From an uncultured Verrucomicrobiota bacterium (GTDB taxonomy: Bacteria > Verrucomicrobiota > Verrucomicrobiae > Opitutales > Opitutaceae): a DNA stretch of 5,201 nt. The stretch covers positions 1 through 5,201 of the forward strand of contig CAMLQS010000352.1 of the NCBI GenBank assembly GCA_946482165.1, given 5' to 3'. The position numbers and the translations under genes were made by a program. Shown piece by piece: positions 1,603 through 5,201 of this stretch (the stretch's first letter is position 1; each line of letters opens with the position of its first letter). Under the pieces are notes generated by a model. That model worked only from the letters and a program-made list of their open reading frames with translations, had not been told where the DNA came from and searched no databases.

Positions 1603-2073
1603 TTATGCGGACGCCGGCGCGGCGGGTTTTCCGGCAAACGCGGCGAGCGTGCTCTTCAGATCCGCGAGAACCGTGTCGTCCACCCGCGACCTCAGCTCGG
1701 CCAACGCGGAGCGCAACGTCTCCTGCAGCTTGGCCAGTTCCTCGCTCACGTCGGGGTTGACGAGGCGCGATTCGGCGAGTTTCAAGACCGCCTCGGCCTC
1801 CTCGCGCTTGCCATCAAGCAGCGCGCGAGCGGCGGCGGTGGTGAGCGCGGACCGGAGCATATGCGCATGCTGCTGCTGCGCGACGGCGTTTTGCATACCA
1901 AGCGCGACCGCCTGGGCGAGCGCCTGAAAGGTGACCGCGGCGGTGAACGGAGCGAGCTGGCCACGAAGCAGCGCATCGACCTGGCGAACGGAATCGTGCA
2001 CCTGATCGTTGGCCGCGTCGTCGGGAGGCTCTGGCGACTCGGCCGGAGGGGCAGCGGTGGGTTCGTCGCTCAT
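1603..2073 (-). CDS. Divergent, extended Reb (R-body) family protein
   Basis: This 156-residue protein has three parts. Residues 1-21 are a Pro/Ala/Glu/Asp-rich leader. Residues 22-86 align with the Reb core of the preceding gene over nearly the same length: NDQV...D.V.Q, then LAPFTAA, an AxxxQALAQA helix, QNAVAQQQ and a final ALL; the neighbour has NDQI...DAVTQ, DAPAQA, QATAQA, HNAVNAQQQ and VALL. Residues 87-145 form a charged helical extension (GKREEAEAVLKLAESRL, then LAKLQETLRSALAELRSRV) with heptad-like leucine spacing that suggests a coiled coil. The tail AGKPAAPASA is flexible. The short Reb proteins beside it are only 77-88 residues. It starts 9 bases after the previous reb stop, so it is almost certainly in the same operon. 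Its GDAPAQALG motif is lost, so it may be an accessory or assembly factor rather than a bulk ribbon subunit; that role is inference. Confidence 0.75.
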   Translation of the reverse strand: MSDEPTAAPPAESPEPPDDAANDQVHDSVRQVDALLRGQLAPFTAAVTFQALAQAVALGMQNAVAQQQHAHMLRSALTTAAARALLDGKREEAEAVLKLAESRLVNPDVSEELAKLQETLRSALAELRSRVDDTVLADLKSTLAAFAGKPAAPASA

Positions 2074-2082
2074 GTTCGGGGC

Positions 2083-2349
2083 CTAGCTGGAAAGAATCTT
2101 CTGCGCCACGCCGGCGGAGGTCGTGTCGATTGAGTAGAGGAGCGCGACGCCCTGAGCGGTCGCCGCCTGGGCGGTGACGTAGGACTGCTGCTGGGCGTTG
2201 ACCGCGTTGTGGGCAGCGTTGGAGAGGGCTTGCGCAGTCGCCTGATAGAGCGAGCCGAGCGCTTGGGCGGGCGCGTCGCCAAGCACCTTCACGCTGCTCT
2301 GGGTGACGGCGTCGGTGATCTGGTCGTTGACAGCGGTGGGTTGGGCCAT
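2083..2349 (-). CDS. rebB: RebB-family R-body structural protein (second copy)
   Basis: This is an 88-residue protein of the RebB 'killing trait' family. Reb proteins are small, alanine- and glutamine-rich helical proteins that polymerise into R-bodies; in Caedibacter taeniospiralis these ribbons unroll at low pH and are needed for killing sensitive Paramecium. The family signature is plain: VNDQITDAVTQ (7-17), VLGDAPAQALG (22-32), LYQATAQAL (34-42), NAVNAQQQ (48-55) and a VALLYSID segment (68-75). It has no signal peptide, as expected for cytoplasmic R-bodies. ATG 2349 is chosen because the domain starts within ten residues of it and it mirrors the MAxPTAVN start of the sister gene; the longer open frame upstream runs antiparallel to no recognisable domain. 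The Shine-Dalgarno is weak. It lies 50 bases after the first reb gene and 9 before the third. The symbol denotes family membership, not a proven orthologue. Confidence 0.9.
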   Translation of the reverse strand: MAQPTAVNDQITDAVTQSSVKVLGDAPAQALGSLYQATAQALSNAAHNAVNAQQQSYVTAQAATAQGVALLYSIDTTSAGVAQKILSS

Positions 2350-2633
2350 GGGAAAAGCGCGGCGGGACGTTGGAGAGGAAGGGGCGGCGAGCCGGCGGGT
2401 CAGGCGACGGGGCCGACGACCAGCGATTGCACGCAACGGGTGGTGACAGCCTGGGCGAGGATCGACGCCTGCTGCTGCGCGGCCGTTGCGTTGAGCGAGG
2501 CGGTCGCGAGCGACTGCGCGGTGATTTGATAAAGCGCGCCGAGCGCCTGGGCGGGAGCGTCGCCAAGGACTTGGACGTTGGACTGTGTGACGGCGTCCGT
2601 GATCTGGCTGTTGACTGCGGTGGGGAATGCCAT
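2242..2633 (-). repeat. Tandem gene duplication: 5' halves of the two short reb genes
   Basis: Bases 2633-2526 and 2349-2242 (first 36 codons of each gene) match at 87 of 108 positions by hand count with no gaps, offset 284 bases. Most differences are third-codon changes. Similarity fades in the 3' halves and in the spacer, indicating duplication followed by divergence of the C-termini. Confidence 0.8.
2400..2633 (-). CDS. rebB: RebB-family R-body structural protein (first copy)
   Basis: This 77-residue RebB-family protein is the first of three in a row. Visible signatures are VNSQITDAVTQ (7-17), VLGDAPAQALG (22-32), LYQITAQSLA (34-43) and NATAAQQQ (48-55). It is 31/36 identical to its neighbour over the first 36 residues by my hand count, but the C-terminus diverges: it ends TTRCVQSLVVGPVA and lacks the LYSID-type tail, being 11 residues shorter. 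C67 is the only cysteine in the three Reb proteins, which could matter because R-body ribbons are unusually stable, though no disulfide can be inferred. The start ATG 2633 sits at the domain edge; upstream bases show no strong Shine-Dalgarno. The gene begins about 49 bases beyond the base of a terminator-like hairpin, leaving little room for its own promoter. It is probably a major ribbon subunit together with the second copy. Confidence 0.9.
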   Translation of the reverse strand: MAFPTAVNSQITDAVTQSNVQVLGDAPAQALGALYQITAQSLATASLNATAAQQQASILAQAVTTRCVQSLVVGPVA

Positions 2634-2958: not shown

Positions 2959-3597
2959 TCACGCGGCACGGCGACGGCGTGTCGCCCCCGCGACCATTAA
3001 CACGGACGCGCCGACCAAAGCGACGTAGGTGGACGGCTCGGGGACGGCTCCGACTTCGATGGCCTCGCCGGGAGTGTCGTTATAGGCGAGGTCGTAACTG
3101 AATCCGTCACCGCTGTCGTTTGGCGTGAAGCTGATCCACCCATAGCCGGTGCCGCTTACCGAGGTCGCTTGGTATTCAAAAGCGAGGAACCCCTTGACAC
3201 CGGACTGGAACTGATTGCCGGAAATTCCTATATGCGAAATGGATACGCTTTCCCCCGCGACAAACGTGGATAGCGATCCGTCGATGATCATCTCGCTTGG
3301 CGCGTTCACAAAGAAGCCACCGTTGTCGGGATCGTAGCTTGCCGTGGACTGGTTGGAAAGAGGGCGCAGTAACTCGCTATTGGAAACCCCCAACCCGCCC
3401 GAATAGAGGTTCAGCCAAGGAGCATCATTAAAATCCACAGGGAATGAGAGGCTGGTCTGCCCTGTCAGGATATTGATATAAATCCCTTCAAAGGAGCTCG
3501 GAATCGAAAGGCTCTCCAGATCCACGTAAACGACTCCGGCCGAAGCCGTCGCGGAAAACGCGAACGAACAAAGCAAATACTGGATTTTGTTTTTCAT
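2959..3597 (-). CDS. PEP-CTERM sorting domain-containing secreted protein
   Basis: This 212-residue exported protein has a signal peptide (residues 1-20: MKNKIQ, a hydrophobic core, then ATASA before G21) and a C-terminal PEP-CTERM signal: V185-P-E-P-S, hydrophobic YVALVGASVLMVAGA, then RRRR near the end. Such tails are recognised by exosortase, which cuts near the PEP motif during export to the surface or matrix; no exosortase gene is in the window. The body between is Ser/Gly/Asn/Asp-rich and beta-strand-like (FLAFEYQATSV, GYGWISFTP, GDGFSYDLAYNDTPGEAIEVG), as is typical of this class of small predicted outer-surface proteins of unknown function. The GYGWISF...AYNDTPGEAI segment recurs in many PEP-CTERM proteins of Verrucomicrobia and relatives, in my recollection. 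It follows the adhesin by 17 bases, with a good Shine-Dalgarno. GC is lower than in its neighbours (lines of 42-52% by hand count against about 65%), hinting at separate acquisition or less biased codon use. Confidence 0.88.
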   Translation of the reverse strand: MKNKIQYLLCSFAFSATASAGVVYVDLESLSIPSSFEGIYINILTGQTSLSFPVDFNDAPWLNLYSGGLGVSNSELLRPLSNQSTASYDPDNGGFFVNAPSEMIIDGSLSTFVAGESVSISHIGISGNQFQSGVKGFLAFEYQATSVSGTGYGWISFTPNDSGDGFSYDLAYNDTPGEAIEVGAVPEPSTYVALVGASVLMVAGATRRRRAA

Positions 3598-3614: not shown

Positions 3615-5201
3615 TTAGTTGATCTCCGCCACGACACGGAAGAAGCGGGCTTTTTTTCCACCGACGACCTGGGTGTAGGGAACCGACACCACTTCATGTA
3701 AACCAGAGGTTGCCAGAAGAGTCGGAGTGGCCGAACTGCTCACCCAAGTGGTGCCATTTGAGCTAAACTGGACCACGTAAGAGATATCCCCGCTAAAGGA
3801 CGCGCTACGTCGCACGAAGAGGACGCGCGTGTTGTTGGTGGGCGTCGTTTCCGTGCGAGTGATCGGCTGACCGGTCTCACTCAAGGTGCCGCCACCGGCG
3901 AAGGTTCCGACGTAAACCAGCGGGTCCGGGCCAGAACCAATATCGTTCGGATCGGTGCCAAAGGCGTATTCGTAGAGATTGGTCACGCCGTCGAGGTCGG
4001 GGTCGGCGGCGGGGCCGCTGATGCCGGCGTCGAGCAGTTCGGAGGGAGTGAAGTTCTCCGACTCCCAGTCGGCGATTTCCAGGAGGCGCACGGTCAGCGA
4101 ACCATCGACGAAGCTGAAGGTGTAGTTGGTTGCGCTCAGCGTGCCGATGGCGGCGGTGATCGTGTAAGCGCCGGGCGTGCTCGAACCGGTGGCGGAGGTG
4201 CTCAAGTCAGCGGAGCCGGAGAGCACCGCGCTGGTGTCGCCGCCGACAAAGCCCGTGATCGTCGCGGTGAGGGTCGGGTTGGCGTAGCCATAAGGACGGG
4301 TCTTGTTGTCGGCAGTCACCGTGAGTTGCACGGAGGTGATGTCCGCCGCGGTCGTGGGCTGAATAAGGGTGTAGTTGCCGCTGTGGGCGCCGGAAAGGGT
4401 CAGGCCGGAAACCGTCACTGTTTTGCTCGTGCCTACCGTGGAGGTGTCGAATACACCGGTAGCGGAACCGGTGACGAGGGTCACGTCGTCACCGCCAAAG
4501 ACGCCGGAAAGCCCGGCGGAGGAAAGGTCGAGGGCTGCGGTGGTGCCGCCGTCGTAGGGTTTGTCGTTCGCGGTCACACCCGTGACGGTGAGGGTGGCGG
4601 CGTTGATGGTGATCGTGAGCGGATCGGAATCCACGTTGCCGGCCGCGTCGGTGGCGGTGACGGTGGCGTTAAACGTGCCAGCCTGAGTGGGCGTTCCGGT
4701 AATCGCACCGGAACCAGAATCCACGCCAAGGCCGGTGGGAAGTCCCGACGCACCGTAGGTCGTGGCGGAACCCGACGCAGTGATCGTGTAGGAGAAACCT
4801 GCGGTGCGATAATCTCCCGATGCGGTGGATCCGCTGGTGATGACCGGAGCGGTGTTATCCACCGTGAAGGTCGTGCTCGGTCCGGCCGCGGCGGCGGTGT
4901 TGCCGGCGGTGTCGCTGGCCGTGCCCGCGGCGATGGAGATGCCTAGCGTTCCGTCGCCCGTGATCGAGCTGATGGTAACAGTGCGCGTGGTGCCGCTTCC
5001 CGTCACGTTCACCGTTCCACTGGCGCTCCCCGTCGAGTTGAGGGTCACGTTCCCGTTGGCCAGGGTGCTCGAGTTGAAATTGGCGTCCGAGTAGGTCACC
5101 GTATAGGTGATCGGGCCGCCGCTCGTGAGGCTGGCGGACGGAGCGCCGATCGAGATCGAGGGGGCGGTGTTATCCACCGTGAACGTCGTGCTCGGGCCGG
5201 C
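3615..5201 (-). CDS. Large secreted adhesin-like protein with Ig-like, YDG and MBG modules, C-terminal part (5' end outside window)
   Basis: The last 528 residues are visible; the frame is open to the window edge, so the true start is outside. Domains in order: an Ig-like repeat of about 105 residues (1-107) bounded by AGPSTTFTVDNTAP copies; a putative Ig (He_PIG-type) domain about 118-200, with LPTGLGVDSGSGAITGTP then AGTFNATVTATDAAGN; a YDG domain about 201-289 (ANDKPYDGGTTA ... SGNYTLIQP); an MBG domain about 290-373 (TADNKTRPYGYANPTLTATI ... YTFSFVDGSLTV); a linker 377-418 with DPDLDGVTNLYEYAFGTDP, a thrombospondin type 3-like calcium loop; and a final beta-rich module about 450-528 (SYVVQFSSNGTTWVS ... 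KARFFRVVAEIN). These are surface or extracellular modules, used for adhesion or as stalks. There is no PEP-CTERM tail on this protein itself. It is followed after 17 bases by the PEP-CTERM gene, so co-expression is likely. Ligand and total length are unknown. Confidence 0.88.
   Translation of the reverse strand, partial: AGPSTTFTVDNTAPSISIGAPSASLTSGGPITYTVTYSDANFNSSTLANGNVTLNSTGSASGTVNVTGSGTTRTVTISSITGDGTLGISIAAGTASDTAGNTAAAAGPSTTFTVDNTAPVITSGSTASGDYRTAGFSYTITASGSATTYGASGLPTGLGVDSGSGAITGTPTQAGTFNATVTATDAAGNVDSDPLTITINAATLTVTGVTANDKPYDGGTTAALDLSSAGLSGVFGGDDVTLVTGSATGVFDTSTVGTSKTVTVSGLTLSGAHSGNYTLIQPTTAADITSVQLTVTADNKTRPYGYANPTLTATITGFVGGDTSAVLSGSADLSTSATGSSTPGAYTITAAIGTLSATNYTFSFVDGSLTVRLLEIADWESENFTPSELLDAGISGPAADPDLDGVTNLYEYAFGTDPNDIGSGPDPLVYVGTFAGGGTLSETGQPITRTETTPTNNTRVLFVRRSASFSGDISYVVQFSSNGTTWVSSSATPTLLATSGLHEVVSVPYTQVVGGKKARFFRVVAEIN
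4849..5201 (-). repeat. Direct repeat at Ig-like module boundaries in the adhesin
   Basis: Bases 4849-4886 and 5164-5201 match at 36 of 38 positions, offset 315 bases (105 codons), encoding AGPSTTFTVDNTA twice. The second copy is cut by the window end. The in-frame period equals one Ig-like module, so more copies probably follow upstream in the gene. Confidence 0.75.

Follow-up and report, generated by a model that had tools for sequence, protein, structure and literature searches.

A reb gene cluster, probably verrucomicrobial, with a small reb-linked gene and an adjoining dioxygenase that may act on a Reb protein

R-bodies are coiled ribbons of protein that serve some bacteria as weapons. 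The part of a 2013 survey considered here placed Reb homologues in Proteobacteria and in one Bacteroidetes species (PMC3583457). A 2026 survey, likewise considered in part, lists clusters of at least three reb genes in several Acidobacteriota and also in one taxon each of Planctomycetota, Lentisphaerota, Verrucomicrobiota and others, reports extensive reb transfer, and describes the Reb proteins of many species as still unconfirmed experimentally (PMC13430693). Signature tests for R-body proteins are given in the same part of that source: QITD with two prolines, a KxxxD/E motif, an NAV/QQQ pattern that is extensive, not absolute, and no Cys pair (PMC13430693). For the Group 1 synteny, Raymann et al. 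2013 describe, in the part considered, HP1.3 as a distant Reb of about twice the usual length and HP1.4 as a protein of 60-80 aa (PMC3583457). Since non-proteobacterial reb clusters are thus already published, such a cluster is not new in kind, and the original prediction that the present locus would belong to a lineage poorly explored for R-bodies is weakened.

The window, by which we mean the whole stretch of 5,201 nucleotides analysed, carries the features listed in Table 1 on its minus strand, where the order of transcription is YDG/MBG surface protein, PEP-CTERM protein, small ORF, rebB1, rebB2, reb3, hydroxylase, and LodA/GoxA-type oxidase. The coordinates confirm the predicted gaps of 50 bases between rebB1 and rebB2 (2350-2399) and of 9 bases between rebB2 and reb3 (2074-2082). 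The hydroxylase gene begins 34 bases downstream of reb3 on the same strand; neither this gene nor the small reb-linked gene upstream was part of the original prediction. The start of rebB2 is the ATG at 2349, the mechanical ORF beginning farther upstream with TTG, and the open frame of the small gene begins at 2969. The genes of the reb cluster may share a common transcript. No promoter-like site was found between positions 400 and 3700, and the terminator-like sites there number 3, equal to the expected 3.0; no Rfam RNA element was detected in the window at gathering scores. The partial oxidase gene scores 112 bits against NCBIfam GoxA, below the whole-protein cutoff of 750, and the C-terminal 155 aa of the YDG/MBG surface protein have no match among plasmids. 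An open frame at 495-782 ends in a protein-like tail, GTIGNSGPVDFYGRMPCNAPAGRYATPAEIRQIIDRFNAGLSE, and is possibly a fragment of a broken gene; it has no match in Pfam, NCBIfam or PHROG.

Table 1. Features of the window, with positions counted from its first nucleotide.
Feature	Position	Strand	Description	Evidence
LodA/GoxA-type quinone amino-acid oxidase	2-451	minus	N-terminal part; neighbouring gene, cut by window edge	PF17990 148 bits
2OG/Fe(II) dioxygenase	918-1568	minus	216 aa, aspartyl/asparaginyl beta-hydroxylase family	PF05118 74.1 bits
reb3	1603-2073	minus	156 aa, divergent RebB, conserved helical extension ALLDGKREEAEAVLKLAESRLVNPD after the Reb core	PF11747 38.8 bits
rebB2	2083-2349	minus	88 aa, canonical RebB: VNDQITDAVTQ, KVLGD, GDAPAQALG, NAVNAQQQ	PF11747 102.9 bits
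Reb signature peptide in rebB2	2299-2331	minus	VNDQITDAVTQ	direct reading
rebB1	2400-2633	minus	77 aa, canonical RebB, MAFPTAVNSQITDAVTQ...QQQ...TTRC	PF11747 84.3 bits
Reb signature peptide in rebB1	2583-2615	minus	VNSQITDAVTQ	direct reading
small reb-linked protein	2718-2939	minus	73 aa, Pro/Ala-rich start, LAAMREAEELVAQAVQ helix	profile 18.4 bits
PEP-CTERM protein	2959-3597	minus	neighbour, upstream of the small gene	PF07589 23.1 bits, cutoff 20.7
large YDG/MBG surface protein	3615-5201	minus	cut	

All three Reb proteins match the Pfam RebB family (PF11747, curated cutoff 24 bits) above the cutoff and far beyond chance (E 6e-24 for RebB1, 1e-29 for RebB2 and 1e-9 for Reb3), which bears out the predicted tandem of three reb genes on one strand and the predicted RebB core of the third protein. 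With three reb-homologous genes within 1603-2633, the locus has the at least three genes per cluster used as a criterion in PMC13430693. The motifs expected in the two short proteins, QITDAVTQ, GDAPAQALG and QQQ, are all present by direct reading. RebB1 and RebB2 carry the domain-1 signature, QITD between two prolines, as PTAVN(S/D)QITDAVTQ...GDAPAQ, and Reb3 has NDQVHDSV in its place. The KxxxD/E motif of domain 1 reads KVLGD in RebB2 and QVLGD, without the K, in RebB1, and the NAV and QQQ of domain 3 read NAVNAQQQ in RebB2, NAVAQQQ in Reb3 and NATAAQQQ, that is, QQQ without NAV, in RebB1. With one cysteine in RebB1 and none in RebB2 or Reb3, there is no Cys pair, as in the R-body signature. 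The structure model of Reb3 is all helical (mean pLDDT 72, pTM 0.43), and a sequence search with RebB2 at E 1 found no solved Reb structure. All three Reb proteins match a PHROG family, phrog_32040, along 63-77 residues. The idea that the reb genes come from phage was considered and rejected, since RebB2 has no match at E 1e-5 among 50,697 phage records; its first 22 residues gave no match in phage records at E 10.

Reb3 has 57 relatives in the database, 36 of which make up, together with the window sequence, the 37 rows of alignment A1. A profile built from A1 found 17 loci on GTDB contigs, in Bradyrhizobium, Ramlibacter, Pelomonas, Hydrogenophaga, Dyella, Lysobacterales, Stenotrophomonas, Oceanibacterium, Bryobacterales, another acidobacterium and Eremiobacteraeota, with no verrucomicrobial member among them. 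RebB1 and RebB2 each have matches at all 17 loci, being 51-81% and 55-73% identical, respectively, to the best-scoring match per locus, and in the 11 genomes counted there are 3 to 6 RebB places, closely spaced on one contig. Eight related loci, from Burkholderiales, Bradyrhizobium, Bryobacterales, another acidobacterium and Eremiobacteraeota, were examined for gene order, and show two or three rebB genes followed by reb3. The window resembles known reb clusters (PF11747) in its tandem RebB genes with QITD, GDAPA and QQQ and in the longer divergent Reb-domain protein adjoining them, but differs in having a small protein of the AAMQAAEAAV type and, as a feature of this lineage, a dioxygenase alongside. 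Like HP1.3 of Group 1, window Reb3 is a distant Reb homologue of about twice the Reb length. The long Reb of Azospirillum argentinense (L030:8743-9198), which we equated with HP1.3 on the grounds of size and order, shares with window Reb3 only the similarity general to Reb proteins (E 3e-6), and its tail is rich in Pro, Gly and Thr where window Reb3 has the helical extension instead. The HP1.1-like and HP1.2-like proteins of the same Azospirillum cluster have no counterpart in the window at E 1.

The small partner recurs at other reb loci. At all eight loci examined for gene order, a short ORF with a Pro/Ala-rich start and an AAMQAAEAAVxxAVQ-type helix adjoins the reb genes. In five of them it precedes the first rebB, in two, both from Bryobacterales, it separates a pair of rebB genes, and in one it follows reb3. 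A profile built from these eight loci, which match it by construction, recovered 7 further loci, for a total of 15 of the 17 (absent: L015 and L017). The window ORF matches this profile weakly (E 5e-4 among 3583 ORFs, the next match being at E 0.3), and the best of 2000 shuffles of the ORF reached 15.7 bits against 18.4 for the real sequence. The protein has a near-identical database copy (P0178) but matches nothing in Pfam or PHROG, nor any NCBIfam model above its cutoff. Its identification as an Azospirillum-type HP1.4 was tried and rejected, as it does not match the HP1.4-like gene. On the evidence of these profile matches, the small gene is a putative member of an unnamed short family found beside reb genes.

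The hydroxylase score against PF05118 compares with a cutoff of 22.6 bits. Its HxD...H motif and Arg are intact as H125, D127, H174 and R184, which we take to be the metal and 2OG residues; they are kept in all 121 aligned rows, and the HRD, H and R align with residues of 4p7w. The structure model (alignment A2, 38 relatives and the window; mean pLDDT 94) matches the folds of L-proline cis-4-hydroxylase (PDB 4p7w) and AspH (e.g. 5jqy, 6yyu), at about 15-24% identity, and is equally close to free-amino-acid enzymes and protein hydroxylases; the comparison covers the families among the Foldseek rows, which the VIA-align listing looked at a second time. The window hydroxylase retains an Asp metal ligand that human AspH is not known to have. 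Matches to the hydroxylase were found in 5 of 199 genomes of the phylum Acidobacteriota (best 51%), in 23 of 399 genomes of the order to which the Ramlibacter genome G002 belongs (best 45-46%) and in 28 plasmid records, each below 60%. Many more distant relatives (P0125, P0130, P0133 and others) also bear GNAT acetyltransferase domains.

One hydroxylase clade is associated with reb genes. From the 372 hydroxylase relatives, 120 were listed, the closest 25 being 72-95% identical to the window protein, and linkage was tested by equal size of the longest contig between these 120 and the 57 Reb3 relatives, a comparison from which we infer co-location rather than see it. Seven equal sizes were found in total. 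Six of the 25 closest hydroxylase clusters match a Reb3 relative exactly, with overlapping sources (2193, 62423, 5475, 49879, 5173 and 20042), and the other 95 listed rows gave a single match (1454), whose sources differ and which is probably due to chance (6/25 vs 1/95, Fisher p 3e-4, the split at 25 having been picked after the list was seen). For contigs above 5 kb the count was 5, whereas 5000 jittered-length runs averaged 0.05 matches and never exceeded 2; for all lengths, with 5% jitter, chance matches averaged 0.9 and reached 6 in 5000 runs, against 7 seen, so that the short 2193 match is weaker than the others. No match to any Reb3 row was found for 19 of the 25 closest clusters, and among the 13 on contigs of at least 5 kb, 5 match, 1 is a fusion and 7 are neither. 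The fusion, P0080, found on a single contig, is a protein of 308 aa with a RebB domain followed by a hydroxylase domain in one open frame.

In the hydroxylase tree, made from 68 of the 120 listed rows and the window, with P0080 trimmed to its hydroxylase part, the six linked rows, the fusion and the window fall in one 26-row clade (SH-aLRT 99). The Reb3 tree, made from 54 of the 57 relatives (P0015, P0056 and P0057 omitted), 8 of the 17 loci and the window, likewise places the window and the six hydroxylase-linked rows in one clade, of 20 rows (SH-aLRT 99); for all 7 of 7 to fall there the chance p is 1e-4. The linked labels require 6 changes on the hydroxylase tree, where 17 of 500 shuffles were as low, and 7 on the Reb3 tree, where 500 of 500 were, because unmatched rows sit among linked ones. 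Judged from these sequence comparisons, the link between hydroxylase and reb is good but lineage-bound, and the 26-row clade may be a single family with conserved gene order. In the open-access literature we found no paper tying a hydroxylase or dioxygenase to R-bodies or reb, and the word "hydroxylase" is absent from the main text of PMC13430693.

The N-terminal Reb peptide also appears in phage proteins. Scanning IMG/VR with RebB2 yielded five weak loci (L018-L022), with 15-37 matching residues inside otherwise unrelated proteins, and a degenerate DNA pattern for NDQITDxVTQ found at least 119 IMG/VR stretches (L044-L162). With the peptide masked, the 119 listed proteins fall into up to 40 groups (blastp E 1e-3) with 85 different DNA words; the 40 is an upper estimate because single linkage and low-complexity filtering may split true families. 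A PHROG match was obtained for 8 of 20 group representatives scanned and a Pfam match for 9 of 10 scanned, and the families matched include a gp32-like ssDNA-binding protein, RecT, DUF3310, a T7-type capsid assembly protein, an endolysin, a cupin, an OmpA protein and a CHASE2 cyclase. V or I stands directly before the peptide, and A or S at its free codon, in 40 of 40 representatives, with A at -2 in 18 of 40 and P at -4 in 12 of 40 (background 4.5%, p 1e-7), non-random preferences that mirror the Reb N-terminus PTAVNDQITDAVTQ. A second pattern, QITDxVTQ, contigs already in the NDQITD set being excluded, gave at least 76 new loci (L198-L273), with 32 groups among the matches listed; of these groups, 23 have N at the second place ahead of the Q, 22 have V at the third, 25 have P, S or N immediately in front of it, and 24 have A or S at the free codon. 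About 9 of the 32, without the flanking N, look like chance. The gp32-like, DUF3310 and CHASE2 families are, by eye, common to both sets, so the group counts are not additive. Of two same-codon scramble controls, one gave 0 matches and the other 35, all of one family. Among 20 phage records in which the peptide is known to occur, the RebB2 protein query found a place in only 10, and it is too insensitive for per-phage counts. The peptide or its QITDxVT core is found twice in tandem in some phage proteins among L048, L087, L091, L101, L121, L125, L130 and L143, and L091 holds the peptide in two different frames, thus in two different proteins. A search of the open-access literature for the peptide string returned one faecal-proteome paper, with a shorter string only, and no description of a short linear motif common to phage proteins and R-bodies was found there. 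VN[DSPN]QITD[AS]VTQ thus stands on its own, outside Reb proteins, in as many as 40 groups of phage proteins that are otherwise unrelated to one another.

We consider it somewhat probable that the locus is a variant reb cluster, probably verrucomicrobial, with an accessory small protein and a dedicated dioxygenase that most likely hydroxylates a Reb protein. It is quite possible, if less probable, that the hydroxylase is instead a passenger, a neighbour in one bacterial family that is perhaps connected with small-molecule metabolism or with the LodA/GoxA oxidase, while the reb genes act alone. Such a role would agree with the wider hydroxylase family beside the clade, which has GNAT-fused members and no RebB domain noted among the 120 of 372 relatives listed, with the free-proline hydroxylases among the closest solved folds, and with G002 (Ramlibacter), where the reb cluster and a 46% hydroxylase relative lie about 520 kb apart on one contig. 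No hydroxylase gene was found in the examined flanks of the 17 GTDB reb loci either, and reb clusters in general thus do not need one. The passenger role is harder to reconcile with an association that extends across hydroxylases 75-91% and Reb3 proteins 58-78% identical to those of the window, together with a fusion at 72% hydroxylase identity, and with the long stem (0.56) that sets the clade apart from its relatives in the midpoint-rooted tree. We regard it as decidedly unlikely that horizontal transfer brought a plain reb cluster into a proteobacterium, or into some other lineage already known to bear reb, with nothing beyond the published surveys. RebB2 is 79.8% identical to Azospirillum plasmid RebB proteins, which is consistent with horizontal transfer, as is the extensive transfer reported in the part of PMC13430693 considered; yet the 20-row Reb3 clade of the window contains none of the 8 named loci placed in the tree. 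Six of the 120 listed hydroxylase relatives (of 372) carry taxon names, namely four verrucomicrobial labels (P0083, P0090, P0132 and P0172), one 'Candidatus Acidoferru...' (P0121) and one Burkholderiales (P0079). P0079 lies inside the window's own clade and speaks for a plain cluster, against which P0083, labelled Verrucomicrobia, is the nearest named row outside the 26-row clade. The suggestion in the original prediction of a phylum other than Proteobacteria holds to the extent that a non-proteobacterial host is favoured by four of the six names, and is tempered by that Burkholderiales label; by these relatives the host is probably verrucomicrobial.

It is also unlikely, though less so than plain transfer, that the Reb proteins use their N-terminal peptide to polymerise or to bind partners and form no classical extendable R-body. 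The peptide does stand alone in phage proteins, RebB1 departs from the signature in the missing K and in NAT for NAV, and the Reb proteins of many species await experimental confirmation according to the part of PMC13430693 considered; against this, the two RebB paralogues of the locus are canonical and retain most motifs of the published signature. More doubtful than any of these is the combined proposal that the Reb subunits are hydroxylated by a dedicated 2OG dioxygenase and that the Reb peptide is a portable interaction tag shared with phages, maybe the docking or modified site.

In the preferred reading, that of a variant reb cluster with a dedicated dioxygenase, RebB1 and RebB2 would be the likely structural subunits of a coiled ribbon, which may be toxic, and Reb3, as a third Reb-domain protein with a helical extension, could serve in assembly, capping or nucleation. 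The small protein would act as an accessory partner. The neighbouring dioxygenase would be an accessory enzyme dedicated to the system, with a Reb protein as its most likely substrate for hydroxylation, in which case the assembly, stability or firing of the ribbon would depend on oxygen, iron and 2-oxoglutarate.

The assembly and triggering of R-bodies are largely open questions, and few accessory partners are known. The dioxygenase, which accompanies reb genes within one lineage, offers a concrete candidate for post-translational control, and the small partner common to several phyla a second candidate. The phage-borne Reb peptide, if a common target is bound, would provide a first handle on the most conserved part of Reb proteins. 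If the proposed hydroxylation is true, R-body assembly or firing would be tied to oxygen, iron and central metabolism.
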